Assembly: GCA_963575645.1 (NCBI GenBank)
Contig: OY754476.1
Coordinates: 1,922,001 to 1,986,000 of the forward strand
DNA from: Xanthostigma xanthostigma
Taxonomy: Eukaryota; Arthropoda; Insecta; Raphidioptera; Raphidiidae
Direction of reading: 5' to 3'
Length of the DNA: 64,000 bases
Each line of letters opens with the position of its first letter. Position 1 is the first letter of the stretch. Below, piece after piece: positions 9,261 through 54,679 of this stretch. The notes beneath the pieces are model-generated. The model did no database searches, was not told where the DNA came from, and saw only the letters and a list, made by a program, of their open reading frames with translations. Position numbers and translations under genes: made by a program.

Positions 9261-12200
9261 TTATACACATATCCAAGCCATAGATATTACAAATAAGGTT
9301 TGTACTGCTAAAAATATCAGACTGTATTTGATCGAATAGGCACCTCCACATTTTTCTATTTCGTGTTCCTGAACATAAAAAAAATAATAATTAAACATTG
9401 AAAAAACGGGACATCTAAATAACAAAAAAAAAACTTTTGACGTAAATTTGACACCGAATGAATAATTTAATAAATATTTACCAACGGGTGTTCTGTAAAA
9501 CAACCAGATAAACGTCTTCTAGATAGATTGTTCATTGGTAACTTTTGACACGCGTAAAACTGTTCCGAAATATTTATCGCTATTGGACTAGCGCTTAAAA
9601 ACTCGTAGGATGTCTGCTCCATAGATTTTACGACGATCAAAAGTAGATTTGTATGAGGTATGCGTTTCACAAAAAACGGTCTGCAAATTAAATATATAAT
9701 TGATTATTACGATTCTGCATTACTTTTTGCAAGAATTTTATTACAGTTTTTTTTTTCATTCACCTGGAACAATTTTCTACATTCAGACCGCAGGCCGGCT
9801 CAGCATGATACCCACTTTCTTTGACAAACTTTTTCTGCAGGACATACAAATCAACTTTATAATCACAACGAGTCGTAAGGTATTTCTTTTCCTTAGGCAT
9901 TTCTTTTGATATATCAATTTCTTCTTCGTCAACTAAGAAAATTAATACATGTAATATATTAAATGTCGTTATACCTGGACTGATTTAACAGTCGATCATT
10001 TTTTTTTTGTTTATAAAAACATTCCTTTGGAAACTGGCATTTGACAACGTATGGCATAGATAATGATACAATAGAAAGAATTGAATCATAAATAGTGATA
10101 TCGATGGATTATAAATAATAACGCTATTTAAACATACAGGATGAATCATCTTCTTCTTCTTCATCATCGTCATCTAATTCCTCACTGTTCATTTGTGGAT
10201 AAGCATATACCCAATTTGAATCCCATAAATGATACAATTCAGTCTCCCAGGCAATCCAGAGAATCTTTGTTATTATCCAGTCTACAACCCAACTTACGTG
10301 GTGAAACGGCTAAAAAAATATGAAAATTTGTAAATTTTAGAAAGGAAAAAAATGATAAAATACTTTATGGTTTTCATTTTAGGATCCCCTGAAGACATTT
10401 CAGAATTATTTCAGATTGCTTACATTTAATAAATTAATTGCAGCATTTTCAGGATCAATTTCTTGAATATAGAGTCCTTGATAGTCGTAGACCGTTATTT
10501 TTTTAAAAATGTCTAAATTTATTAATTTTTTCATTATTGCCCCTGCAGTTTCTATTTCACCGAAAAACTTTCCTGTGTCATTAAAAGTTTCTGATAAAAT
10601 AACATAGCCAGAATTGTCAATAACATAGCAATCGAGTTCTTCTGCTTCACACGGTAAACAGTTAGGCGAGCCTCCGGGACACTGAAAAAATTAACGTAAC
10701 TGTATTTTTATTAACAACAAATAAAATAGATAACATATAAAATGTCATATTCACAATATATGTACACTCTATAATATTTTATCGTGTATTGATTTCAATA
10801 ATACATAACTGATAGGAAGTAATAGAGATAATACATATGATGTGAACTGACTTTTAGCATCTCTTAAAAATACTTTACAATTGACGAAACGTTCATTTTA
10901 CTGGTTATTTGCATAAATCTTGTATACATTTCCGAATGTTGAAATTGAAACCCGACCACAGATCCAGGGGCTTCTTTACCTCCATCTTTTGGGAACACTG
11001 CATGGCTGGCTGTTATAACAATATCTTCATCATCAATATTAGCTAAATCTTCCAAATGTGGAACGGTGAAAACATACGATTCTGGATCAATTTCATGCTG
11101 TAATACAGCACTTTTATACCAACTTTCATCCACGGCTTTCGAATGATAATCGCCAAACTCACTGGAAAATGAAAATATATGTATTGGGTACAGGGCCCGA
11201 TCCAGCTATTTCGCCGCTCCGGGCAAAATAATATTTGCCGCCTTTTACCCATGCGTTGTTCCACATTCCACATTTTATTATCGACCAATTTTTCAGACAA
11301 TATATTAACAAAAAATATAATTAAAACATTAACGTTTCGATCCGGATTTGGATCTTCTTCAGAACGGATCTAAAAAATAAAAAAAATAACTGATATTTAA
11401 TTTCTAATTCGCTTTATATAAAATTCTTTTAAAAATAATTAATTAGTATCAAAATATTGAAAAAAAAATTAATTATTTTGAAAGAATTTTATATAAAGCG
11501 AATTAGAAATTAAATATTAATTATTTTTTATATTTTTTAGATCCGTTCTGAAGAAGATCCAAATCCGGGTCGAAACGTTAATGTATTAATTATATTTTTT
11601 GTTAATATATTGTCTGAAAAATTGGTCGATAATTTTATTTATTGAATAAATATTTTTCGTATTACGCGTGCAATCAAAAAAAAAATCCAAAAAATGGATA
11701 GATAAGGAGCCTTGAACAGGAAGCAAAAGCAACAAGGAATTTAGCTACAGCACATAAAATATTGGATTAATGTTTTCACATACGATAGGCGTTTGTTTCG
11801 GTAAAAACAGACAATTGTCCGGTCAGTTATTTTTAAAACACTTACGATTTTGAGTCGTCTTCATCTTCGGGACTGATGTACTGCCATCGTGTTAAACCTG
11901 ACATTGTGGCAACAAATCTTAACGTAGCGTTATAAAGTTTGAACAACTCTCTGTTATCCTTGAAGTTCCAATTATTGAAGGAATCGGTAACTTTGGCATC
12001 AAAAACAAGACCTTGAACCAGTTCTTGATTACAATAATAGTCGTCATCTTCCAAACTTTTTCGTCCGCAGTCGACTAAAATGAAAAAAGAGATCAAAGTA
12101 ACCAAAAAAGTATGGGAAGATGTTTTGAAAATGCTTACCGTTTAAATCATATTCATTTTCAACCCAAGAAATAGGAGTGTCCGATTCATATTGTTGAGAC

Positions 12201-27164: not shown

Positions 27165-30100
27165 ATGTTTCCAGATTCTGTCATGTGGAAAACAATACTA
27201 CTGTTTGCAGTTACTGTTCAGGCCAAGACCAATATAAGAAATGATCCTAAGAATGATTTGGCGCTTTGGATAGATGAACAACAAGTTAAAATGTTCAGTG
27301 GTTAGTGATATTTTATTGGTAAAGAGCTTAAATATATATACTCACATTAACTTAACTTAATTCGCGTGTTGCACAATACCTATACAGAGATGCCATCGAA
27401 TGGTTCATTTTTATATGACCGGGGGTGGATTTGGGTAAAACAATAGTGTCTTTTGAGAGCTTCTAATCTAGGGTAAATGCAGCATAAAACATAATATTAT
27501 GTAACTTTTTAGGTTTGTCTATGGAAATTTATGCAATATTTAATGGTAATGTCTTACCATACATATTAGATCCAAATTTGGAGAAATATCTTCCAATAAT
27601 ACCATCAGAAATTGGATACGTTAATTTTACGTGGAAATCCGGAATGAAAAAATATTATTATAATTTTGACAGACTGCAGTCGTTTGACGAATCAATTTTG
27701 CAGCCTCCTGTAATTTCAATTCGAACAAAAGGTCGAATACCAAAGAGGCCTAAAGAATTCAGTGTTCTTTTACCATGCTCAGGTAACAGTTCAGGGATAG
27801 CTGGATTCAGTATTGGACTGTTAATCGAAAGTAGGAAAGGTCGTCCGTTAAACGGTACTCCGTTACGTCTAAGATTGAGGAAGGAATGTGCGCAAAGAGG
27901 TAGTAAGTCAATAAAATCATTCTCTCATCATATAATCTGACTGTCATCTCATTGCAAAGCTCGCTCGCTCGCTCGTCTCGCCTCGCCTCGCTTGTTGCTT
28001 TTGGATGTGATTGCTGGTGCTGTGCCGACCGCAGTGCAAAGACTATGAAGATTGGTTACTAAACACAAACAGCTACCGCAGTTTCTTGTTTCAATTTAGC
28101 GACGCTATGCTACATAATAATATAATATGTACTAAACATTAATTGTTGTAGATGTGTTTATTATTTTACATTATTATATTATATGTATAAATATATAAAA
28201 AAAACTACTGCGTACAGTAAGTGCTGTGTTCTAAGGGATGAATTTATTTTCTGAGGTGCAGGACCAGATCCAGAATGTGACAAGAAATGCGCCAACCAGG
28301 GCTGGTGCAATAGCGAAAAGATATGTCAATGTCAAGAGGGATATATGGGCCAGTACTGTCGAACGGCGCTTTGTTATCCTCAGTGTATGAACGGAGGAAA
28401 TTGCACATCTCCCGGAGTCTGTAGTTGTCCGCCTGGATTTCAAGGTCGTCACTGTGAAGGAGGTGACCATTATTTAATAATTTCCGTTAATAATTTTTGT
28501 AGCATTTATATTAAATCTTTTTAAGTACATAACACTAACATATTTTATATAACTTTAGAAATAGAAATAGCAGTTTTGCAACCAGTTTTAATGATTTGAG
28601 TGATAGCTTCATAGAAAGGAGTTTGCTGTGCTCCTTCATCAATTCCAATATCGTGATGTTCCTGTTCTTCATCCCTGAATTTCTTTATTACATCCAATAG
28701 CTCTTTATTATTCTGGCCCTAATTTCAACAAAACATTCATATAATAATAATAATAATTAATTCTTGACTCGATTATAAAAATCGTACCTTTTCCTCCATT
28801 AAAACCCGCAGTTGATCATTGTAATGTTCCACAATGACTGATTCCACAGCTACAGTACATGCCATTGCAGCTTTTTCACCCAACAAAGCTGTACCGGCCC
28901 CCAATAGAAATCCTGCCACATTCCAAATAGGTACCATAACAGTTGGTCTAACGCGATATTTATGAATCAGTTCTTCAAATTTTGCTTTATGTACTTTCTC
29001 TTGATCCCACATGTGTTGTATTAACGGGCCTTTATTAGTTTTTCCCAGCACAGCCATTTGACCTGCATAAATACGATCAGCTCCCAATTCTCCAGCATGG
29101 TCTACTCTAATAATTGATGAAATTTTTGTTGAATAACTACGTATGTTACATATCGATATTCTCGACATTATTTCCGTTATCTGAAAAAAGTTTTTCAGTT
29201 TAATCCAATTTTAAGATCTCAAAAAGGCATTTAACAGACAAGAGAATTCGGAAACAGACATCATGCAATGCATTTTTTTAAAATTTAAATCGCGACCCTA
29301 TTTTTAAAACCGAATTTACCAATAGGTTAAGTAGGCTAGGAGTAAATGTTTGAGTACATCGAATTTCAAAATTACACTGAAAAGAAAAGAAGCACATAAT
29401 GCAACGTCTCAGGGTTAGTTACACGTAAACATGAGACTCGTATCATCCACTGATGCCGGCTAACAGCTTTCTTCCCACCACACCACGCTGTCTAGTGGAG
29501 TGGGGGTACTCAGATGTTACAATAACTGGTTACTGGATGTATGCAGAAGTATCCTAAGTCCAAAATGTGCTGTTTTGAGTTTTATACACTTATAGATATG
29601 TTTTTGAGCATATTTCAATTCCAAAATATGGTATAATAGATTCTATCATACCATATTTTGGCGGAACAGATTATTCTGCATTGAAATCTGCTCAAAAACA
29701 TATCTCAAAACAGTCATTTTGGACTTGAGATACTTCTACATTCACCCAGCGTATTTATAATTTATATTTGTGTTATGTTATGTTGTAGATTTTATTTTAA
29801 ATTTTTGGGTGGGCATATCTAGCTTTATTTGTAGCTGGTTTCTATCAAAAATATTATTTAATAAGCAATATTTTGTTAACAGGAATCTGTGCTAAAAAAT
29901 GTTTGAATGGTGGAAAATGCATTCAAAAAGATACCTGTGATTGTTCCAAAGGATATTTTGGATTGCGCTGCGAATTTTGTAAGCATTGATTATTACTACA
30001 TTTTTTTTATATATTAAATAAAGTCTTCAAAAAAATAACATCATGAATTGAAATAGCTAAATGCGTGATTTCGTGTTTAAATGGAGGACGCTGTCGGGGC

Positions 30101-30489
30101 GTTAATAAATGTCGATGCGGAGCAGGATTTAGAGGAGACCATTGTGAAGTGGGTCGACGTGTTCCACAAAGAAGTACTTGTATGAGACCCTGTCGACATG
30201 GAACATGTCAGTCCGATGATACTTGCCTTTGTGAGCCAGGCTGGTATGGAAAACTATGTAATCAAAGTAAGTATGTACTCACAGTAAGCCGGTGGTGTTC
30301 GTATGAAATTTTTTATTCTACTAAAAGCTCTTCAAACTTTACAAAAGTACACTGCAAATTATTCTGTTGCACTGATTTCAGCGTAATTGTAGGTACTGAC
30401 AAAAATAACGCGATAATCTAATGTGCCAACTATTATAAAAACTGTTTGTTTCAGAAATGCCACATAGTTCCAGATTACCAAGAAGATAA
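27165..30489 (+). CDS. shf: Shifted / Wnt inhibitory factor 1-like secreted protein
   Basis: Secreted WIF-domain protein. In flies Shifted binds heparan sulfate proteoglycans and helps spread lipid-modified Hedgehog; in vertebrates WIF1 binds Wnts. Six coding exons join in frame to 354 residues: 27165-27300, 27513-27899, 28262-28462, 29883-29978, 30057-30266, 30455-30489. A short signal peptide ([13 protein letters not shown]) is followed by the WIF domain (about residues 28-170: [32 protein letters not shown]). Five EGF repeats follow, each with the CxxxCxNxGxC...CxCxxGYxGxxC pattern, and a short basic tail (SSRLPRRstop). Two in-frame ATGs (27,165 and 27,183) could start it; the first follows a CAG acceptor, so an upstream 5' UTR exon is implied. 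The donor of the WIF exon is ambiguous by one codon (GT at 27,900 or 27,903). COQ7 lies antisense in the third intron. Confidence 0.95.
28545..29168 (-). CDS. COQ7: 5-demethoxyubiquinone hydroxylase COQ7
   Basis: Mitochondrial di-iron monooxygenase that hydroxylates demethoxyubiquinone, the penultimate step of ubiquinone synthesis. Two exons, 28788-29168 and 28545-28718, give 184 residues. The N-terminus [15 protein letters not shown] is short and basic, as for a mitochondrial presequence. All di-iron motifs are visible: E27 in [17 protein letters not shown]57 and H60 in [12 protein letters not shown], the glutamate of [15 protein letters not shown], and EEQEHHDIG in exon 2. Length fits the animal family (about 180-220). 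The gene sits wholly in an intron of shifted on the opposite strand. Confidence 0.95.
29545..29750. repeat. Foldback element upstream of COQ7
   Basis: CAGAAGTATCCTAAGTCCAA and the later TTGGACTTGAGATACTTCT, plus TATGTTTTTGAGCA and TGCTCAAAAACATA, are inverted arms around AAAATATGGTATAATAGATT. It lies within the shifted intron, about 380 bp 5' of the COQ7 start. Confidence 0.65.
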
Positions 30490-30639: not shown

Positions 30640-31348
30640 TTGAAGTGAAAACTTCTTTAGCGGCGTTGTACACTTTTTTTGTAATGGGTAAAAAATGTTA
30701 AACTCGCGTCAGATCGAAAATTCGTAAGGCCTGATCGAAAATGCGTAAGACAAAATTCGTAAGACGAAAACTTTTGTACACTTTTTTTGTAATGGGTAAA
30801 AAATGTTAAACTCGCGTCAGATCGAAAATTCGTAAGGCCTGATCGAAAATGCGTAAGACAAAATTCGTAAGACGAAAACTTTTGTACACTTTTTTTGTAA
30901 TGGGTAAAAAATGTTAAACTCGCGTCAGATCGAAAATTCGTAAGGCCTGATCGAAAATGCGTAAGACCTGATCGAAAATTCGTAAGACGAAAACTTTTGT
31001 ACACTTTTTTTGTAATGGGTAAAAAATGTTAAACTCGCGTCAGATCGAAAATTCGTAAGGCCTGATCGAAAATGCGTAAGACAAAATTCGTAAGACGAAA
31101 ACTTTTGTACACTTTTTTTGTAATGGGTAAAAAATGTTAAACTCGCGTCAGATCGAAAATTCGTAACACCTGATCGAAAATGCGTAAGACAAAATTCGTA
31201 AGACGAAAACTTTTGTACACTTTTTTGTAATGGGTAAAAAATGTTAAACTCGCGTCAGGACACGTGACCTGATCGAAAATTCGTAAGACGTTAATATTCA
31301 AGTTTTCACTTCTGCCGGCACTCCCGGAGTACAACCCGTCTTTTTTTT
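30640..31348 (-). repeat. Dispersed repeat expanded into a ~108-bp minisatellite, copy 3
   Basis: Same family as 3,958 and 17,268 but reversed. The GTACAC-T(6-7)-GTAATGGG unit starts at 30,668, 30,776, 30,884, 30,999, 31,107 and 31,215, with a period of 108 and once 115. The other two copies have only one or two units. Each unit carries two or three GAAAATTCGTAAG/GAAAATGCGTAAG submotifs. Open frames here are by-products of the repetition. Confidence 0.9.
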
Positions 31349-39069: not shown

Positions 39070-39268
39070 CAGGGCCCGATCTACGAAGGAGGGGACAAAC
39101 CGGGCAATTGCCTGGGGCGGCAAAATTGAGGGCGGCGCGGCGTCGGCGGCGAAAATTTGAAAGATGGTTAAACAAAAAAAAAATTACACCATCTATGGAA
39201 CAACGCATGGGTAAAAGGCGGCAAATATTATTTTGCCCTGAACAGCGAAATAGCTGGATCGGGCCCTG
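39070..39268. mobile_element. hAT MITE with 8-bp target duplication (7/8)
   Basis: CAGGGCCCGATC and GATCGGGCCCTG are terminal inverted repeats. The flanks CATATAAA (39,062-39,069) and CGTATAAA (39,269-39,276) match at seven of eight bases. The interior is GC-rich (GCGGCGCGGCGTCGGCGGCG). A broken relative lies at 11,192. Confidence 0.75.
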
Positions 39269-39448
39269 CGTATAAATCATAAATTAAATTAGAGCAAAAC
39301 ATTTTATCAAATAAAAAAAACTTAAATCAAAATAGCTGCCTCCGTAAACATAAATTTCATTATTTTTAAATGCAGTTAAACTTCAAATTTATTCATAATT
39401 CGAATCGTGTCGTATTATTATTTAGCAGTATCGAGTATTTACAAACAT

Positions 39449-40083: not shown

Positions 40084-43000
40084 ATGGGAGGTAAGCAAGA
40101 TTTAGTATTTATTAATGATCAAATCTGTCTAGATAGATATTATTGAAATACCGACAAGTTTCTAATTGCTAAGCTTTGCAGTTCATCTAATTAGCATGTG
40201 CATTTGGTAAACAGAAAAAATCACGCTGTGTATGACCTCATGACCTTCAAAAGTTGAACAATTTTGTTTTATCTATTTTTAATATAATATTATATCGTTG
40301 AGTTATAAATAGATTTCCCTGTCTTTTAAAGGAATTATTAGAGATAGGGTTAATGGGCTTAAAACATTCAAGTTTACTAACCTATCTTAGCGCTCTGATA
40401 ACGTTGCAACTATAATTTATTAATAAAACTAAGTAATAGAACATACAATGCATATTAATATAAGTATAGTACTATATTATAGTATTAAATTTTATGAATG
40501 AAGGTACATATATACTGATATGTACCTGCACTTTTTGAATTAAACGCTTATATTCATTTAAAATAACGGTTACGGAGAACCTTACACGACTTCCATGTTC
40601 AAAAATCATTTTTAACTTGCAAACTTTCAGTGGAATTTGTCAGATAGCAATTGTATACGAAACAAAATTGCGAATGTCTCCAAAATCAGTGATCCAATTG
40701 ACATACAGATCAATAGAACTGTAGTTCTTATACTATTACTGGCAGAAATATTAAAAAAAAATATTTCGAATGGTGAATTTCTGCAGAAGTAATTGTAATT
40801 TCACAAGCACAGCCGCCACAAGAATAACCACTTTTCTTAACGTTTTGGGGGTAGAACCAGAAGAGTATATTGCCGGTGTTCGTAACATACAGAAAAAAGT
40901 CTGGAAATATGTTCTACCGCCTAGATAGCACAAAATACCCAAAAAACCTCTAAAAACAAAATTAAGGACATAAGATTTCATTAGAATTTAATTTATTATC
41001 ATGATTTTTATTTAATATATTGATTAGATGTGTTTCAATTACTGTTGAAAATGAAACATTTGGTTCGCAAATAAGGAAATGTTTACAGATTTCAAATTCT
41101 CGTTAAACTAACATATGTGTGGAGTGGACGCTAGGCTATTTAGTTTCGGTATTATTTTTTGGCACAAATAACCTAAACTAACTACGTCGTGTCCGTGTGC
41201 TATTCAAGTAATGTAACCATGAACTAACTGCCTGCGAGCTCTTATTTTAAATAGTTTTATACCAAGGATGCGCAAAGTGCATTATTATTATTATTTATTA
41301 AATTGTTAATGAACCATATAATAATAATAAACCATTATATAAGATGGTGATAGTATATTGATTCTCCCTAATACCTAAATGATCAACGACTAGGAACCCA
41401 ATGAGTTCTTTCGTCATAGCTTATCAAGGGCGTAGATATTTTTTTTCCTGGGGGGAGGGGTAAAGCAAAACAAAATTCAATGTTTTTTTAAGTTGTATTC
41501 ATATCACACAGGAATACTCACGAAGGAAGGTGTCAAGCAAAGTATTAATTCCCAAATTAATTTTACAATTTTTTTTTCAAGAAGTATTTCTAAATTTTAT
41601 TTTTTAGCCAGGTATTCGTATTATTTTCAGCTGTAATTACTCCCTTACCCCCCCTTATCTACGCCCTTGTAGCTTATAAATATGAGAAGTTTTTTATCTG
41701 AAGAATTTTTTTAAAAAATATTAGTATTTAAAGTAATTTAATATTATTGAATTCAGAAATTTGGTATTTAATAAAGCATAGAAGACGATATTAGAAAGAA
41801 GCAGTTTTTCTGTAAACATCTTATTTAAAATAGTAACGAGCTATATCGTTGCTATATAATGTAATTTTTAGTAATGTTGTTTTTTTACGAGTTTTTTTTA
41901 CTAGACCGAATTTTTATGAATCTTGATTTTGGTACCCAAATTTGAAGCATACTTTTTATCCGTCAGTTGGGTTAAGAAAGGGTATCAAAACTGATAGACT
42001 TGCGGATAAACTGTGTATTATGCTAGTGTTTTAATATATTATTATACTTCACTAACTTTGACATACCTACATATACCTAAAATCAATTACAAGGATTTTT
42101 GTCATTATTTGTGAAGATTAGAAAAAAACTCACTGTACGGTTAGTCTTCAGTGAGTTTATTTATAAAACGAATACTAGTTCACATTTTAAAGTTTTCTGT
42201 ACTCCCACGTGGCATTCAAAATAGATTATAATTTTCATGGACTAAAATTGAGAAAGAAGAAATGTTACGCTGTGAAGAGCATCAAGAATAACTTCTATTT
42301 TACAAAACAGACGTTAATAATAAACTATTATTATTATTACTTTGCGAGAAACGTCTTTAAAACAGTAAATGCAATAAATGTGAAAATTCCTGTTTATTTT
42401 AACGAAATGATATTCTTTATGCAAATTTATGACCTTGCGTCAATATTGGCAGAATAATTTCTGTATTCACGAGAAGTTTTGATGTTGTCTAATTTTATTT
42501 TTATGGCGGCTGTAACATTTTTTCCGAAATTATTCTTTATTAAGCTCATTACGCAAACATTCGAATTTTTCTATTTTTTGACGTGATAACGTCTTATAAA
42601 TTGATGAATCACGTCAATATAAAAAGATGAAACACCGGCTGCATGCACGAAAAAGTGTAACGTTCCTAAAGTTCCGCCTGACCCTGTGCGTGATTATTAA
42701 ATATGATATTCGAGCGGAATACGTTATCACGTAAAACTATCGTCCGTAAACCGACTTTACAGACAACCAATTTTTTATTTTTTTTAATAGAATGTTCTAA
42801 AATGTTGGTGATGTTCAAATTAAAAAAATATTTTCATTGAACCGTCACATTTTTTATGAGAAGATGACACTTTTTACGTCATGGTAAAATAAATAAGGTC
42901 GACGAATATAAGTTTTAAGGAATGAATTCTAATATTGTAAAACGGGGTCTGCGTCAGTTAAATTAGGACGCATTCTAACCCTGACTTATTTGTCTGCAGG

Positions 43001-46000
43001 CGTCGTTTTGCATTGCTTTGCTATGTATTGCAAAGAAATGCGTCGCAATCTTCAGTTAAGCCACTTTCCATTTAACCGAAGAAGTAGCTTACGAGCAACG
43101 AGTGTTTTATGATTTCGAAATAATCCATTTTCATTTTCTCATATCAGTCTAATACTTTTCGAAAATCATGCAAATTGTCTATTCAAAGTAGATGATTTAA
43201 GATCAGTTTGAAGTTTGTTTTATAATTTAATGGAAAGTAGCTTATTTTATGTTTTAATTTGAAAAAAACATTTTTTACAAAACTTTACCTTTTTGATTTA
43301 ATCAATAAACTATATTATCAAGGAAGAGTCATTAGACTTGTGCATGCTATAAGAATGTTTGTCTTCGTTTTATAAAATACTAGTGGCCCTGGATTTGTAG
43401 ATTGTCACCGTTTTTTCGTCGACGCTTACGTTGCAAAAATGGTCTCCACGAAAAGCGCTTTTATTTTATCGCGATAATATATAGCCTATGTCCATTCTGA
43501 AGGTCCATTCTAAATATGTATACTAACTTTACCTCTTGAGCATATATAAGATTAATTATAGACGCTCGACAACTGAGATCATAAGCGTCGATATTAAAAA
43601 ATATATCGGAACAATCAGGATAAATCGACAGTAAAAAGGAAAGAGATTCTTGTAAATGACGTCTAGTCGCCATCAAGTGCGCGACGAGCCACCGTTGTTA
43701 TACTTAATCTGTGACGCATTTGCTTGTTTTCAAACCTTGATACATCTATCTGCATATAATTTTATGTGCGTAATTTCGAACTAATATTATATCAATAACC
43801 AGTAGCAGTACGTTAAATTTCACCGCATGACCGCTCAAGAAGATTACATTACAATATCTCTTTTCAATAAATAAATTTAAAGAAATCGCCCCTCTCAAAA
43901 GGAAATGTCAGTTAATGAAACCTTGTTTTTTCATTTGTTACAAATTAGCTATATTATAATAGAATAGTTGTAAATGAAGAGATAAATGAATCATTAATTA
44001 TTGTTCATTAATAATTAATTGATTTCTTTTAAACTTGACCCATTTATTTATCCAAACTAAACAGTAAAGTTCACTTTTTCTGTCGTTTTATTATCGTTTA
44101 TTAATAACTTAATGATTAATACATTATTACATATTTGTTTTGTATCAAATTAATAATGATAATCCAAAGGTATATGTCACTTTGGTCGGATGACCGAATC
44201 ATATTTTAGCCCAAAAAATACCGACACACGTTTGAATGTGTAAATATTTTATACATCAATACTGATAGAATTTCTGTTAATTATGTGATTGTTAATAGGT
44301 ACAGCATGGGTGACTTTGGCCACCAATGATTCATATTGTTTGGGAGCATTGGTACTAGCATATTCCCTCCGTAAAGTAGGAACAAAGCATCCTATGGCTA
44401 TATTAGTCACTACAGGTGTTTCGGACGCTATGAGGTATGTGAAGATTATATATTTATTTATTATTATCATTTTATAATAGATTCTATACTCTTTTAGATA
44501 AGTGAGAGCTTTCAGAATAACTAAATAAGCTTTCGGTCAAACGATTCCTTCCCCTGACCTCCTCCTTATTCCTACGCTCCTGATTATTTTGATTTATAGA
44601 CATTCGTGGTAGTGTAGAAGTGATCAAATTATCATTTTTATTGCAATTTTGTGGCAGTTCGCATTTGTTGGGTATTAATTATTGTATTGATATTAAATAT
44701 TATTTTTAATTCAATGCTGGATTTATTTTGTACTTGGTTTTTAAAAAATTTGAACCACAAAACCTCATGCCTGTATACATTACAATCCTGTAATAAGTAC
44801 ACCTCACAGAAAATATTAACGTATACTATTGTTTGGTTATGTAATTTAATACTTACTTGAATATACAGAAAACCGTTATAATTATGAAGTTACTCACCTA
44901 CTCAGCAATATTCATTTTTTCAGTTCGTTTTAATGTCAATATCCAAAACTAAATCTACAACGTTTTTGTCACATTTGTCAATCATAAAAATAACAGCCCA
45001 CAATCCTATATTTGAGTATACTCACGGCTGGATTTTAATAGCGTCGTTTCTGTTTTGCGACCTGTAAAGTTTTATGCACGCCAAAATACAACAATCCATA
45101 TTCGAATTTGTAGAAATATGAATTCCAGTCTATACTCACTAAACATAATAAACTTTTGGGTATACGTATATTGCGAACCACTGAGCGGTAACGTATATGT
45201 TCGAAAGTATACCTATAGTAGTATAGAGAGTAGAGAATAGACCTGGTTGCGTGAGGCTTTGATGTGGAATTAAATCATATGAAAAATGCATTCTTTTTTT
45301 GTTATTTTAGAGCTAAAATAGCTACCGTATTCAATGTAGTTAAAGAAGTAAATGTAATAGATTCAAAAGACCAAGAACGTTTACTTTTATTGAAGAGACC
45401 TGAACTTGGTATTACTTTTACAAAATTGCACTGTTGGCGGCTAACAGAATTCGACAAATGTGTATTTTTGGACGCCGATACATTGGTAAAATATTTATTT
45501 GTTTATATTAATTCTATTAAATAGATTTGGCAGTTAAATAATTTATAGAATAGAATAGATAGAATAGATTTTTATTGTCAATTGGAAATTACAAATATGT
45601 CAGTACAAATAAATTAAAATTTAAAGTTAATAAATTCGTAGATAGAATAGAATCCATTTGAGAGAAGTAAATCCTTATTTTTATTCTTAAAAGCACTCGA
45701 GGTAATAGTGCGATAAGTAATTATCAGGAAGTTTGTTATATAAAGTTGCTCCAAAGTTGTTAGGGTTGAATTTGAAAATATTAATATTAGCCCTTGGGAC
45801 ATCTAAATTATTTTTTCTACGCGTGTTATACTGATGGGAGCTATTGATTTGCTGATAATTATTTAAGTTTTTACGGACCTCTAATAGACAGTAATAAATA
45901 TAAATGCACGGTAAAGTCATAATACGTCTATTTAAAAATGTGCCTTTGCAGGATTCATATCTATTTATCTATTTAGATATATATATATTAGATAGATATT

Positions 46001-49000
46001 CTATTTAGATTCTATTCTATTTAGAATAATAATTCTCCCGAAAAATCAATGCTTGGTTTAAAGTAGGTACTCCAAATGATCAAATCTATTTAATTTACAA
46101 ATACTATTTTCCTTGTTACTCTTGTATAATTTCTAATTTGTATTTATTATCGAAGGTACTTAAAAATTGCGATGAATTATTTGATAGAGAAGAATTATCG
46201 GCTGCCCCTGATGTGGGTTGGCCAGACTGTTTCAACTCAGGAGTATTTGTATACCGCCCGTCTGAGCAAACATTTAAAAATCTTATCCAATTTGCTTTAG
46301 ATCATGGAAGTTTTGACGGTAAGACACCCTGTTTAAATCCTTCATCGTGATATGTGCGTAATTATTTATTTTTTTATTGTTCGTAGGCGGTGATCAGGGT
46401 TTACTGAATATGTATTTCTCAGGCTGGGCTCACACGGACATTAGCAAGCACTTGCCCTATATTTACAATATGGGTTCCGTTGCTGTTTATTCATATCTCC
46501 CTGCATTTAAACAGTAATGCTTAATGTAATATTATCGTCTTTCTCTATGTGGCCACTTGAATCATCTCGCTTAATTGCTCATTGAATTCCTATTATTAAA
46601 AGTCAAAAGGAATCATGGAACGTGCTTGTAAATGTGGGCATTAAGGATTATTGGAACTCTTCCATATTTCTTGATCACTGGACTCATAGAGGGAGTCGAC
46701 TGTACAATATATTAATTTTTATTTTCGTATTTAAAACAATCCTATAATATAATGTCTTCGTTATTTATAAAAGTCTTTATTAATTGATTATGCAATTTTC
46801 AACCGTCTGTATCAATAACATCGTTGTTGCTAAGAAAAACGTATTTTTAGCAATTTATTAGTTTATTACGATGTTTTCGTTGCACGTGTATGATGTATTG
46901 GTCAAATGTCAAGTGTTTACAAAATAAATAATAGTGACTAAAATTAACAAAGCTAATCCCAATTTTTATCTTAATGGAAATTAAATTGAATTTAAATCAA
47001 GGCATAATAAATGCTTAAATTGCAAATTTATTTAGGTTCGGCGAAGGCGTAAAGATCGTACATTTCCTGGGTACAGCAAAACCATGGTTACAGTATTTTG
47101 ATACAGAAACGCGTATTGTCAGACCATCTTCTGGTTGTGAACACTTGCAAAGAGTTCTACAAATTTGGTGGGACATATTCTGCTCACATATTCATCACGA
47201 TCTTTCTCCAACTATGGTAAGTCGCAAGCTTAAAAACTTTTAGCGTATGAAAATGTAATATATTTTATTTTATTAATATTCCCTTAACTGATTGATTTGT
47301 GACTAAATTTTTTTTAATATTTTCGCACTCTCACTAAACACAAAGTGTTTTTTGGACTATTCTAATAATCAAGAGGTGAGCTGAGTTGCACTACATAAAT
47401 AAATCTAACTTCTATAGCTGTTGTGTGTGTTGATTCCGCTCTTTTTATAGCTTTTAAAAATTTTTAAGTAAATATTTACAAATTAAATTGTGCATTTTAC
47501 TGCGTACATTTTTAGCATTGTTTATTTATTGAACATATATTTTGGAATAATGTCAATTCGTGTTCTGTATTCAGTTATTCGATAATAATACTATTTATTT
47601 AAATAATTTAAGATTCTGTAAAATTAGTTCTCAAATAAGTATTGTTTTCGTATTTATTATCTAATAATTGTTTAATATTAGAAAAGCGTTCAGAGATATT
47701 TTCTTTAAATAATAAAAGAAAGAAATAATAATAGCAAATAACGTACAGAAAGAATTTAGATTATTCTAAAATCCATATTAAAGCAAATAAATATACATAA
47801 TATGTTGCATTTGAGACGATGGATTGAGATGCACATGTTTTACTTAATTAACTTTGCGCGCTTGTTAATCGGTTTTAACAGCGTATTATGGTCATTATGC
47901 TAAATAAATCTTCATACAGAAGTCCACTGTTGCATATGTTGCACGATGAATGGAATTCACTGTATAAAGGACTATAAATAAGGCTGATGAAGATTGGTGC
48001 AAGTCTAATATAAAATTAAACAACATTTATTCAGTCGTTTATTATTACAAGATTTGTTGATTCGTTTTTACGTGTAGATAATATTTGAAATAAATTTTGA
48101 TTGCTTCATCAGCCATCGGTGAATGTCGCATTGCCACTCACGATTTAAAAGAGAATCAATACACATATTACTCTCTTATTTAAAAATAAATCACTATTTG
48201 TGTTGCACCTTTTTCTTCTTTTGCATGCACTCGTTTGGCTGTACGATATAGATTCGCTCTGGCACAGGAACAATCCATTCTCTGACCGAATCCTTTCCCA
48301 AAGTCGTCCTGTCCTACGAAACGTACGCTGACGGAGACAACCCTGACTACCCACAATATTCTCCATGGCACGATGGAAGTGTAATTTATAAACCAGATAA
48401 TTGGGATCCTTGGGAAAATTATACGGAAAATCATAATCCTGATGAAAATAAAGAAAATACGTATAAAGGGGAAAATCATGATCAATATTTTGAAAGTAGC
48501 AATCGTATTGATGAGCAAAATAATATTAAACATTTAGAAATCAAGGATCATAGCGATTCGTACGGTATATCTCATCATTATGAGCATCATACTTCCCATA
48601 ATCCCGATGAAACATTCAATCCACAGGATCACCAACATTCTGAACATTCCTATTCAATTCAACAATCTGATCAAAATGAATCTCAACAGCCCACTTATAA
48701 TCATGTGGAACATCATCAGGAAACACACTATCCACATGAGCATATACATCATCACATTCAACCTGACACATCCCAATCTAATGATCATTATCATCATTCA
48801 GAACATTCCTATTCAAATCAATCATTTCATCATAATAATACTCAACAGCCCACTTATAACATTCAACATAATTATCACAGCTCGGTACAGCATCTTGAAC
48901 AAATCAGTACACATGTTCCTGATCCTAATCACAAACCGTACAAGGAAACGTTTGAAGAAGTACATTTTTACAAAAATACGCCCTCAGCTAAAGATAAAAT

Positions 49001-50031
49001 TATAGTAGAGACAGAAACTTTTAACTGTGATGTTCCTATCAATCCTGGCAGAGTAAAGGAATTTGACAAGAGCACAGCTTTTTCTGCTTTGCCTGCACAT
49101 GACAATTCCAACAGCAGTAATAATTCTGTAAGTAAAGTAATCAAAAACATTTTTATGTTTATGTATTTTTATCGACAACGGCTGATGAAGCTTAATCACA
49201 AATCTTAACTTTCGATTTTTGATAATTGAAAACTATGTAGTCAAATAAATTTGAATAGGCAATGAGGCATAATCATTGAGACGAATCATCAAATACAAAA
49301 ATGCTCATATGTATAGTCTTTGTTGAAATGTTGGCGTTGAATGACAAATTGGTTAACGATATTATAATTTATGTCATTATATGGTGACGTAAAATTTTGA
49401 TTTTTTTTACTTAATTTATGGTACAAAAAATGTTTCATCATCCGTTGTCCAGGTTCTTATTGATGCATGTTGATCTGTAATTAATTATTAATTAATTAAA
49501 TTAAACAGCGCAAATTCGTCATCGGTTTTGCAAACTTATTTTTATTCTAATGTAAAAGTAAAACCTATTTTATTTCATGATTTATTAATATATTTTGTAT
49601 ATATATTGTTACAAATTATATATAAACAAAGATTTTATATATATTAGATCTGTAAACTAAGTAAAATATGATTTTTAGACGAAAACACGGCAGTTTAAAT
49701 TAATATTTAAGCAGCAATATTTGATATTTGTAATTATGAATGTTTGTAGGCTGGTCTTGCAGGAGTGTTTGCCCAATTGACGTTGGGAGTTCCTAGAACA
49801 GAAACGCAGAGTGTATTAGAAGATCATTTTAGACGTCAAAATTGGGAAATGGGCAACATAGATTTCTTAGGTCGCGATTCCTTTGCAAATATTTGGGATA
49901 AGATTTGTCAGACACTCTCTTCAACTGCGCCATCTGCCCCAGAAGAGACGGAAAAGGAACCAAAACCAGAGCAAGAGCAAAAGCAAAGCTTAGAGGGTAT
50001 GATTGAAAGTGTAACGATAGCCGATGACTAA
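40084..50031 (+). CDS. Gyg: Glycogenin, short (canonical) isoform
   Basis: Self-glucosylating GT8 glycosyltransferase that primes glycogen with UDP-glucose. Exons 40084-40090, 44299-44434, 45311-45485, 46156-46318, 46387-46513, 47036-47216 and 49750-50031 give 356 residues, the usual family length. The first exon carries only ATG GGA G. The metal-binding DxD is D102-A-D104 in VFLDADTL. The acceptor tyrosine is Y195 in [10 protein letters not shown], the same number as in rabbit glycogenin. [14 protein letters not shown] and [12 protein letters not shown] are typical GT8 segments. The glycogen-synthase-binding motif near the C-terminus is [26 protein letters not shown] at 50,054-50,059 would end this transcript. 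Introns hold a LINE fragment (45,541-45,935) and several MITEs. Confidence 0.93.
41425..41669. mobile_element. hAT MITE, CAAGGGCGTAGATA family, perfect 8-bp target duplication
   Basis: CAAGGGCGTAGATA and its reverse complement TATCTACGCCCTTG (one base off) form the ends. TAGCTTAT is duplicated at 41,417-41,424 and 41,670-41,677. Relatives are at 60,998 and 61,955. Confidence 0.88.
42579..42777 (+). mobile_element. Dispersed element with inverted GTGATAACGTC ends, copy 3
   Basis: A shorter relative of 31,826 and 33,430. Both ends are conserved (GACGTGATAACGTCTTATAA; GTTATCACGTAAAACTATCG), but the middle is deleted and a short segment near the left end is partly repeated. Confidence 0.7.
43378..43500. 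repeat. Dispersed repeat fragment
   Basis: ATACTAGTGGCCCTGG is followed by TATCGCGATAATATATAGCC and TATGTCCATTCTGAAGG. The latter part is the reverse complement of sequence at about 56,560-56,610. Class unknown. Confidence 0.45.
45541..45935 (-). pseudogene. LINE 3' fragment (reverse-transcriptase C-terminus)
   Basis: On the minus strand, frames read [40 protein letters not shown], then (after a frame change) [16 protein letters not shown]. This is the arrangement at the end of CR1/Jockey-type LINE proteins. It finishes with AATAAA-like sequence and a (TCTAT)n tail at about 45,545-45,570. A TAGATAGAATAGATT/ATAGATATTCTATTTAG flank lies on both sides. It sits in a glycogenin intron. Confidence 0.65.
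48252..49127 (+). CDS. Gyg: Glycogenin His-rich cassette exon (292 codons)
   Basis: A single exon between a TATAG acceptor and a TCT|GTAAGT donor. It is open throughout in phase 0 and its length is divisible by three, so it can be included or skipped without changing frame. It would sit between SPTM and [12 protein letters not shown], which are contiguous in ordinary glycogenins. The first third ([20 protein letters not shown]) is unremarkable. The rest is rich in His, Asn, Gln, Ser and Tyr, with an imperfect duplication around [10 protein letters not shown] and [10 protein letters not shown], each followed by QQPTYN. The end ([20 protein letters not shown]) is less repetitive. It is probably disordered; function unknown. 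Its use in transcripts is inferred from splice signals and phase. Confidence 0.75.
49121..49127 (+). other. Cassette exon donor (phase 0)
   Basis: TAATTCT is followed by GTAAGTAAAG, a near-perfect 5' splice site. It leaves the frame at phase 0, matching the acceptor at 49,750. Confidence 0.7.
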
Positions 50032-50053
50032 AATTCAAAATTTATAAATAGGT

Positions 50054-50059
50054 AATAAA
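50054..50059 (+). terminator. Poly(A) signal for short glycogenin
   Basis: AATAAA lies 23 bases after the stop of the short isoform. An alternative end here would fit the read-through of the GT at 49,997. Confidence 0.45.
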
Positions 50060-51733
50060 GAAAGTGTACGAATTAAGTGGCATGAAAATGAAAATTTTCT
50101 TTTTCTGGTAAATAATTTCTGAATAGTTTGTAGAAAAGAATATATATATGTTATTTTTGATATTTCTCTGAACAACTATAAAAAATATTGATAATTAATT
50201 TTTTTTAGTCGGTGCTCAAAATGGGCGAAATCAATAACTTTCAATTTATTATATTATTAATTTTCTTTCAGTATATCTGATAAAATTGTTAGTGAAAATC
50301 ATTAGGTATAACATTCCATAATTTTTTTTTTTTTATTAATATTTTTTATCTATATTTTCTCCCAATTCGAGCACCGAAATTTACATAACTGATCCATTAT
50401 TATATTGTACCTATCTATATGCTAATAAATCATATTAAAATATATCCGTTTTTATTTTCAAAATTCCAGTTCGGTTTGAATAAAAATGTCTCCAATATAT
50501 TTTTTAATACAAAATTGTCTTTTTTATGTGTTAAAACTAGTCGCGCAGCATATTTTCAAATGCTTGTTCTTAATTTTTGCCAATCATTGGTGATTATATT
50601 TAAAAAAATCAAAATTGCCTAAGTTTAAAAACGCATTGGTTTTTTCTGCATCATTCACTATAATTTGACATAATTAAATAAACTTGGCTCTTTAGACCGC
50701 AATCGTGAAAAATGCCGTGGCAGTCAACGTGTAAAGTAAATCACTTTGATAAAAAATAAAGTCAAGTATAAAAAATAAATCGTTATTTTGAAAATTTGTA
50801 TCAGTGTACCCATACTTTAGGGAAAAGAGAATAATCAAAAATAAGCAGCACATCTTCTCGTTCAATTAGATATCGCACAATACATTTAGTAGCATACGAA
50901 GTATTTCAAAATACTTATTTCTTCACTGTTGCATGTTCCACTTAAATATATAACTAGAACACTCGTTTTCATTTGTTTCTTACGGGTCTTGGGCTATCAT
51001 TATATTAATTAGGTATCATTTTTTTAATTTATAATTTAATCAAAATGGTGCATGTAATCAAAATGTATAAACACAATCTAATCAAAAACTGGCTAAATCA
51101 ACTAATATAAAAAACTAAAAAGCATATTATTATATACCCATAAACACACATTTCAGTAATTAGTTGCATTTATTATTGCGAATATTTGCCGCATTTTGCA
51201 AATAATCATGGTTGAATTTATCTAAAAATGCAGCGAAATTTAAATTTGAGTAAATGCGGAAATCAAAACTAAAATGACTTTTTGACTTGTTAAAATTGTC
51301 AGTAATTACGTAAATCGGATTGAGAACTAGGCTGTTCACTATCCATTTTTTATGTAAACCTTGGAATATGCAACCCAATTAACTTTATCAATATCGCTAC
51401 ATTGCAATTGATATAAAAAATGGACTACACGTTCGCAATAAGAAAGTGTGAGCGACATTTTTTCTGGCTTATGTCAATGATTCTGAATGTAACAAACGTG
51501 ACCGCTACTTATTTGTATTTTTTAATATGCTAATGAATATAAATAAAAGTAACATTTTAAATTAACTGGTGGTGGAATATACAAACAATTTTCTATTATT
51601 GTAGTGATCATAGCCAGTGTTTGAAAGCACCAAAACATGTAGTACAATGTAAATAAGTCTGTTTTTTAATGATCAAATGAGCTGATAATAAGTATTCGAC
51701 AGTTAATTTTTTTAACGTGTATTAATTTTTTAG

Positions 51734-53886
51734 CTAGAATAGATGATAAACCTTCAACTACTGAAGAAGTAAAAGAGAAAACACGTGAAATTCCTTCAGC
51801 ATCAGTGGAAGCAGTTGTAGCACCGACACTTACGCCATTAGACGTGGCACCAGTCTCTCCTCCGGCAGACAAACCGACTCCAGTTCCCATTTCACCAATA
51901 ACAGCGCCTATACAGATAACTCCAGCTACTCCACCCGCACCTACTGAAACTGCGGCAACTGCTTTACCAACTCCTCCAGTTCTTGCTGAACCAGTTGCAG
52001 TCGCTTCAGTCATTTCAGAGAGTCAATCTGCAACGCAACCGCCCAAAGAAATATCCCCAACAGCTGGTCAAGTAGTCCCAACTCCTAGTAAAGCAGCAGA
52101 AAAAGCAGTTTCGATTCCTACCGAAACAGTACAAAGTTCTGCTGAAACACCTAAAGACTCAGTCCCAGTCCCAAGTGAAGCTCCTCTAAGTCCTGTTGAA
52201 ACAGCCAAAAAACCAACCTCAGATTTGATTGAGGCTCCTAAGGAATCTAAGGATCTTTCGAAAGTAACAGATGTAACTGTAACACCAAAAGCAACAGCTC
52301 CATTTCCTAGTGAGACACCAAAAACAGCAGCTCCAATTTCTCCTGAGACACCAAAAACAGCACCACCAGTTCCTGTTGAGACACCACAGGCAACTCCAGT
52401 TCCTACTGAAACACTACAATCAATTGTTCCATCCTTAATTGAAACACCCAAAGAACAGGCCCCAGCTGCTACCGAAACTCCAAAAGAAACAGGTTTGAGT
52501 CTTACTGAAACAACTAATGTAACCGTTCCAATTTTTGAATCACACAAAAATGTCGTTTCAGTGTCCGCTGAAATATCAAAAGAAGCTGTCTCAACGCTTA
52601 CTGAAAAAACAAAGGCTCCAGTTCAACCAGTCGCTGAAATACAAACAGAGGCAAGTTCAGCTCCAACTGAAACATCTTCGGTTCCAAAAGAAGCTGTTGC
52701 AGTTACAAAAGAAGTAGTTCTTACTCCTAGTGATGTTTCCAAAGAAGCAGTTCCATTACCTACTGAAACATCAAAACAGGCTGCTCAATTATCCGCTGAA
52801 AAACCAAAAGAGGCACTTTCAACACCGGCTGAAATACCAAAAGAGGCAGTTCCAGCGTCCACTGAAAAACTAAAAGAAGTAGTTCCGCCCACTGAGAAAC
52901 TAAAAGAGGGAGTTCCAACACTCACTGAAAAACCAAAAGAGGAAGTTCTTACATCCACTGAAACACCAAAGGAGACAGGTTCAACACTAACTGAAAAACC
53001 AAAAGAGACAGTTCCGACGCCTACTGAAAAATCGAAAGAGGTAGTTCCAGCATCCCCTGAAAAAACAAAAGAGACAGTACCATCACCTACTGAAAAACCA
53101 AAAGAGGCAGTTCCAACATCTACCGAAAAACCAAAAGAGACAGTTTCAACGCCCAGTGAAAAACCAAAACAGGTCGTTCCAACGCCTACTGAAAAATCAA
53201 AAGAGGTCGCCCCGGCGCCCACTGAAACTCCAAAGGAAGAAGTTCCAAAGCCCACCGAAACTTTAAAAGAAACAGCTCCACCAGCCGTGGAAGCTCCGAA
53301 AGATATGACTTCACCTGCGATCAAAAAAGAAGAATCTCAAGTTTCAAAACAGTCTCCAGCCCCGAAGGAGTCAGCATCAGTTCCTGCTCAAGTAGAAAAA
53401 GAAGAAAGTTCAGTATCAAAAGGTGCGATTTCAGCAGAGGAAGTGTCTGCATCTAAAGACTCTCCGTCTCCTCAAGAAGCAGTTGCCGCATCTAAAGAAG
53501 TACTTAAAGAAGTCTCTCAGGCACCCAAAGAATCTTCTAAGAAGTCTAAGGGTAAATCAGCAAAAGAAGTAGTTGCAACTTCACCTCAAAAAGAAGAATC
53601 TGCAACGGAATCAGTTCCAAAAGAAACTGGTGCTGTTCCAAAAACTAAAGAAACTTCAAAGGAATCTGCCCCAAAAGAAATAAAAGAACCTGGATCAGCT
53701 CAACCTGCTCAAAAAGACTCTAAAGCTTCTAAAGAGGATTCTTCGAAAAGTCAGCCAAAAGAACAGCCTGCTAAAACTCAAGCAAGTGCATCACCTGAAC
53801 AAGTTCCACAACCGCCACCAAGAAAAGATAGAAAAGGTTCTGGTGGAGGTGGTTCCTCCAAGAAATCACAGTCCAAGAAAAAGTAA
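51734..53886 (+). CDS. Gyg: Glycogenin alternative 3' exon: 717-codon Pro/Thr/Glu/Lys-rich repeat tail
   Basis: A TTTTTTAG acceptor at 51,733 opens a 2,153-base exon that stays open to TAA at 53,884-53,886. It starts in phase 1. The short isoform's last exon has a GT donor at 49,997 (after GAG G) that also leaves phase 1, giving Q-S-L-E-A-R-I-D-D-K. With all exons the protein is 1,354 residues. The central part (about 52,840-53,270) is an array of about 13-residue units of the type VPTPTEKPKE. The flanks are looser Pro/Thr/Ser/Ala/Glu/Lys, and the end is basic (KSQSKKK). No ordinary domain is seen. The antisense open frames over this exon are mirrors of the repeat. Confidence 0.8.
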
Positions 53887-54048
53887 CTTGCAGTAGTGGC
53901 AATGGGTTTTAAAGTGCTTAATATATTTTAATTTAACTTTTTTCTATAATAATATGCATGAAGTGATTATAGTGTTTTTATTTGTTTCTTCGTTTATCTT
54001 TCTAGTCTTTATAAAACTGCCTTTGTATTTTCTATTGTTTGTTGCAAA

Positions 54049-54054
54049 AATAAA
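54049..54054 (+). terminator. Poly(A) signal for long glycogenin
   Basis: AATAAA lies 163 bases after the stop of the long isoform, followed by GT/T-rich sequence (TTGTTAGTATGTCATTT). Confidence 0.55.
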
Positions 54055-54679
54055 GAAACAGTTCTTAATAAATATGAAATACTTGTTAGTATGTCATTTA
54101 TTGACCTACATGCGTGTATAATCTATACAAATAAATAAAATTAAAGTGTCTGTTAGACTGTTTGTAATGTCAAAATAATAGCTTTTTACTAAATGCGTAA
54201 GTATATACGGTACTTATGACAAAAAACGGGTTTTAAAATTTTTGTCTGTATGTCTATTTGTTTACTTGTCTGTCTGTTCCTGAATTAATTATTGACACAA
54301 TGATATCAATTTATTGTAACGTATTTATTACATAGCAGACACTGATGAACTTAGGTGTTGAAAGGTACCATTTGCACCCGGACGAAAGCCGGACCGGTCA
54401 CCTAGTCACCATAATATTGTATTGTCATCAAAACTATGTATGCAAAATTTCAACTCAATTGGATAACGAGAAGTGAGTGAAAAATCAGTCGCAAGATTTT
54501 AAATAAATATAAAAAAAACGTGCAGTTAAATAAAAAAAAGCTAAATAATAAAAAAAAAACGTTTATAAAAAACGTCTAAAAAAAGTTCGACAACAACTCA
54601 CGGTTAACCGCAAAAATGTGAAGCGTGACGCCACACTTGACCAGTCTATTGTTGTACCTACTGCTGCGACAAAGTTTTA

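Follow-up and report, generated by a model that had tools for sequence, protein, structure and literature searches.

A glycogenin gene of Xanthostigma xanthostigma with a probable composite terminal exon and a distal exon for a predicted 717-residue tail

We describe a complete glycogenin gene from the insect Xanthostigma xanthostigma, rebuilt exon by exon as nine exons (E1 to E9) on the + strand between positions 40,084 and 53,886 of a 64-kb window, the whole stretch of DNA that was analysed. The eighth exon, E8, is most likely a composite terminal exon, and the ninth, E9, an alternative last exon of the same gene. Proximal polyadenylation and splicing to E9 probably act on this single gene as the two outcomes that choose between a short and a tailed form of the enzyme. 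The expression and function of the E9 form are put forward here as proposals from the DNA sequence. A tailed glycogenin of this sort combines two known kinds of thing, glycogenin and the composite terminal exon, and is no new kind of system. It bears on what determines the size of glycogen particles and the position of granules in the cell.

Gene structure and the conserved enzyme

Every glycogenin intron in the rebuilt model is bounded by GT and AG, and every exon join is in phase; the placement of E1 was made by eye, not by homology. The features of the locus are as follows.

40084..40090, + strand: E1, start codon and MGG, the last codon split; ATGGGAG followed by gtaagc, in phase with E2
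44299..44434, + strand: E2, catalytic domain; in phase, its protein aligned to glycogenin-1 (1ll2)
45311..45485, + strand: E3, catalytic domain with FLDADTL, from the alignment to 1ll2
46156..46318, + strand: E4, catalytic domain, from the alignment to 1ll2
46387..46513, + strand: E5, containing the tyrosine that aligns with the priming region of 1ll2
47036..47216, + strand: E6, end of the catalytic domain, from the alignment to 1ll2
48252..49127, + strand: E7, a 292-codon exon rich in His, Ser and Asn, phase 0/0; open over 876 nt, with AG and GT at its borders
49750..50031, + strand: E8, probable composite terminal exon with the predicted synthase-binding motif (phmmer), the internal donor and a stop codon (TAA, 50,029-50,031)
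49997..49998, + strand: internal 5' splice site AGG/GTATGA, phase 1, second of 97 GTs
50054..50059, + strand: proximal AATAAA after the E8 stop, for the short form
51734..53886, + strand: E9, predicted 717-codon tail exon with stop TAA; 2,153 nt in an open frame
52741..53260, + strand: array of 33-nt (11-aa) repeats, VPTPTEKPKE-like, 15.8 copies, from repeat analysis of E9
54049..54054, + strand: distal AATAAA that would serve the tailed form, with further copies at 54,067, 54,130 and 54,134

The product of E1 to E6 joined to E8 is 356 aa long and aligns over residues 4-315 with the solved glycogenin-1 structure 1ll2 (phmmer, E 2.9e-108). It matches the Pfam family Glyco_transf_8 (PF01501) at 3.6e-21 and, more weakly but likewise above the cut-off of that family, PF11051 at 2.8e-5, so that phmmer and Pfam both identify a GT8 catalytic domain homologous to that of glycogenin. 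The segments DADTL and YSYLPAFK are identical to 1ll2 in the alignment, which indicates that the DxD motif and the priming tyrosine are conserved; a passage of PMC12267440 names Tyr195 as the autoglycosylation site. Residues 27-56 of E8 match the GYG-1 peptide 4qlb_G (phmmer, E 0.0031) and its residues 3-52 match the C-terminus of glycogenin-1 (phmmer, 4.9e-5). E8 is thus predicted to carry the C-terminal glycogen-synthase-binding motif, and to carry it upstream of the donor at 49,997.

Catalytic domain, DxD motif, priming-tyrosine region and synthase-binding motif all align with those of animal glycogenin (GYG1/GYG2; GT8). Those glycogenin-1 PDB chains that reach the motif are 333-353 aa long and end soon after it, and glycogenin-2 in the PDB is 501 aa long with the motif at 467-498; in the tailed form, by contrast, the motif would be internal and followed by 717 residues, and the linker that precedes it can grow by 292. 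A search of viral and prokaryote contig collections with the short protein returned no relative, a result that is uninformative on conservation among insects.

E9 as coding sequence and the character of its tail

The frame of E9 runs for 737 codons from stop to stop and is the longest of the six frames in the window, the second-longest being the 318 codons of E7 and its run-on. Base shuffling of E9, repeated 300 times, gave at most 213 codons over all six frames, and the other two forward frames of E9 itself hold 26 and 57 stops. Read in this frame, E9 shares its codon choice with E1-E8 (r 0.61 over 43 codons), an agreement that is absent off frame (-0.32 and -0.06). The 3-base periodicity of the whole exon is 68; its less repetitive ends give 20 and 26, and two flanks give 0.23 and 0.69. 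Together, the open frame measured against shuffles, the in-frame codon usage and the periodicity lead us to read E9 as coding sequence. The open frame extends 61 nt 5' of 51,734 before it closes; residue composition, judged by eye, shifts at 51,734. The ratio pN/pS among the repeat units was dropped as a coding test, for it came to 0.51 in the E9 frame and 0.55 in the +1 frame; the unit pattern had found 17 units, 14 of them in the core; the +1 frame left 12 of these 14 usable, and the +2 frame left too few to compute the ratio.

E9 has no match in Pfam or the PDB and is single-copy in the 623-Mb, 28-contig genome, a search of which returned two matches, E9 itself included. The other, at 27% identity, falls in a protein that carries repeats of the NRPTERPQ type and is taken as unrelated; that weak match is in a frame of more than 1,000 codons in the same genome (contig C4, L002), which holds many NRPTERPQNNY-like repeats.

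The predicted tail of 717 residues (74.6 kDa) has two aromatic residues and no Cys, and it is composed largely of P (15 percent), E (13), K (12), S (12), T (12), A (11) and V (10); P, E, V and K make up 50.1% of it, and A, S and T bring the sum to 85.1%. The preliminary description called it an array of VPTPTEKPKE-like units, a name that suits the middle of E9 and not the whole, because repeats fill roughly 30% of the exon. Outside the main array the 33-nt period recurs at 52,282-52,414, in 4.1 copies of 11-aa units. Five decamers in E9 come within one residue of VPTPTEKPKE, and 12 within three; the exact decamer is absent from E9, and a degenerate DNA pattern for it has zero matches in the genome. 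The charge-hydropathy score of the tail is -0.008, just on the disordered side, compared with +0.222 for the catalytic part and -0.333 for E7, and we infer from the repeats and the composition that the tail is disordered. Its share of P, E, V and K resembles that of the PEVK-rich segments of titin and projectin, a likeness by composition alone. The tail bears 34 SP/TP sites, and its C-terminus is a basic stretch after PQPPPR, which fits PxxPx[KR], a pattern of SH3 ligands of which PQPPPR may be an instance.

The predicted splice junction and competing explanations

The donor GT at 49,997-49,998 divides E8 so that its first part, E8a (49,750-49,996, 247 nt), ends in phase 1, and the AG at 51,732-51,733 opens E9 in the matching phase. 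We scored donors with two matrices, one general and one derived from the seven donors of the gene itself; the 49,997 donor ranks second among the 97 GTs of 49,750-51,733 by each, with a score of 1.9 by the general matrix. An equally good phase-1 donor inside E8 has a chance expectation of about 0.23, given that 7 of the 13 GTs in E8 are phase-1 and that 3.3% of the 3,394 GTs in the window score as high. The 51,734 acceptor is weak by a mammalian-type matrix (-6.5, 80th of 266 AGs), but it falls within the range of the seven acceptors of the gene (-7.3 to 5.1); a matrix built from those seven places it 15th of 257, below six of the seven leave-one-out values. Other in-phase acceptors near the start of E9 lie at 51,743 and at twelve positions from 51,767 to 51,884. 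The best of them by the mammalian-type matrix is 51,869, and we prefer 51,734 because a start at 51,869 would lose 45 residues that resemble the rest of the tail; 51,743 may be an alternative start.

The phases of the upstream exons narrow the possible partners of E9. Among eight exon ends (E1-E7 and E8a) three are compatible with it, those of E8a, E1 and E4, and splicing from E1 would leave out the whole catalytic domain, from E4 about half of it. A direct join of E6 or E7 to E9 was rejected, since phase 0 reads CTA GAA TAG. The sole in-frame ATG of E9, at 53,305, is residue 525 of the tail, so E9 needs joining to an upstream coding exon, and all identified + strand coding exons between a - strand IBR-domain gene and E9 belong to glycogenin. 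The claim of the preliminary description that E9 is an alternative last exon of one gene is thereby supported by the sequence, and its coordinates for the donor GT (49,997) and for the start and end of E9 (51,734 and 53,886) are correct to the base.

Past the E8 stop an AATAAA stands at 50,054, and past the E9 stop others stand at 54,049, 54,067, 54,130 and 54,134. Twelve such hexamers occur in the 4.4 kb of 50,033-54,400, and their density near 50,054 is 0.41 per 100 nt, so an AATAAA near a stop is little evidence alone. As previously proposed, then, the canonical last exon does hold an in-frame phase-1 donor (49,997), its own stop (50,029) and an AATAAA (50,054), the last of these not above chance by itself where hexamers are so common; the exon at 51,734 likewise is open for 717 codons in the matching phase, with a poly(A) signal of its own from 54,049 on. 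Composite terminal exons are a described class, and a passage of PMC5928244 gives the IgM heavy chain as the best known case of intronic polyadenylation. In the account given there, an exon whose donor is unused runs on to its own stop and poly(A) signal, and use of the donor joins it to a coding exon farther 3' that has a separate signal, which is the arrangement of E8 and E9. The distal exons of IgM add a membrane anchor, however, whereas E9 would add a long, repetitive, soluble tail.

In this model, splicing at 49,997 would compete with cleavage a short distance past 50,054. Were cleavage and polyadenylation at 50,054 to win, the mRNA would end there and encode the 356-aa enzyme (648 aa with E7); were 49,997 spliced to 51,734, the 717-residue tail rich in P, E, K, S, T, A and V would take the place of the final 11 residues, giving products of 1,062 aa or, with E7, 1,354 aa. 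The gene presumably produces both mRNAs, and both the short and the tailed forms would retain the catalytic domain and the synthase-binding motif. The preliminary description put the enlargement at nearly four times, a figure that applies to E7 and E9 together (356 to 1,354 aa, 3.8-fold); E9 alone gives a 3.0-fold increase (356 to 1,062 aa) or a 2.1-fold one (648 to 1,354 aa).

The first explanation to be weighed against this regulated choice overlaps with it, and the two are not exclusive: E9 may be the usual last exon, with the form that ends at the E8 stop rare and no choice regulated. We regard this as possible, if rather unlikely. The 49,997 donor is fair, the 50,054 hexamer could be chance, and the architecture alone gives no isoform ratio; on the other hand, 356 aa is an ordinary size for a glycogenin, and the short form stops a little past the synthase-binding motif, in the manner of full-length vertebrate glycogenin.

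Improbable, in our judgment, is a second explanation in which E9 ends a different gene, one that has a promoter of its own and a small first exon within 50,032-51,733. Nine of the 84 GTs in that interval could end a phase-1 exon started by an ATG, and the best candidate (51,420-51,447, MDYTFAIRK) has a donor that outscores that of 49,997 by the general matrix (2.7 against 1.9). This exon would encode only nine residues before an intron of 286 nt, however, and its donor falls outside the top six by the gene's own matrix; the next candidate donor scores -1.9. The stretch between E8 and E9, moreover, is 26% G+C and holds no frame of 100 codons, and a match to the phase of E8a would be accidental. 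That E9 is unused, or that the 49,997-51,734 junction is rare noise, is very improbable: the weak acceptor speaks for it, and 717 stop-free codons, whose usage agrees with the rest of the gene in no other frame, speak against it.

Linker length, granule placement and other features of the window

E7 sits exactly between the catalytic domain and the synthase-binding motif, and its 0/0 phase means that it could be included or skipped. No Pfam family matches it at an E-value of 1 or below. An internal duplication of 73 nt is found within it, with copies at 48,628 and 48,787 that are 82% identical. The glycogenin linker normally varies in length and sequence between species, and its length from the catalytic domain to the synthase-binding motif is reported to govern particle size in vitro, both according to passages of PMC9188544. 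Inclusion of E7 could extend the arm on which glycogen synthase is held. The preliminary description ascribed a possible effect on granule size to the tail; since the size rule concerns the linker and E9 lies beyond the synthase-binding motif, the idea fits E7 better. Because the motif precedes the 49,997 donor, the long form keeps it and E9 is an outboard tail. Lying beyond the granule core, it would either tether the particle to cell structures, the role that the preliminary description had suggested, or link one granule to another.

Human cells use GYG1 and GYG2 jointly to shape glycogen particles, as a passage of PMC12267440 has it. We raise, as a doubtful idea, that two independent exon choices yield four primers, E7 setting the reach of the synthase arm and with it granule size and E9 placing or clustering granules, so that the splicing of one gene would do the job of the human pair. 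Particle size and placement would both find a natural experiment in a gene whose linker exon and outboard tail can each be exchanged. Clustered (alpha) particles are occasionally seen in insect flight muscle, according to a passage of PMC8116748, which makes that muscle the first tissue of interest. Among the matches listed in our search of the glycogenin literature (insects, isoforms, splicing, linker), the titles and opening lines of abstracts mention no tailed insect glycogenin; automatically annotated databases may already contain isoforms of this kind.

Elsewhere in the window, a WIF domain (1.7e-37) and EGF-like exons lie at 27488-30418 (+) and are perhaps parts of one + strand gene; this pairing resembles that of Drosophila shifted. 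A COQ7 exon (1.6e-51) at 28776-29210 (-) stands between the WIF and the EGF-like exons and would be a nested gene if those are one gene. A tandem array at 30660-31260 consists, by eye, of roughly 120-bp units of GATCGAAAATTCGTAAG-like pieces, and the stretches at 39090-39270 (+) and 11043-11369 (-) look, again by eye, like copies of one interspersed element.
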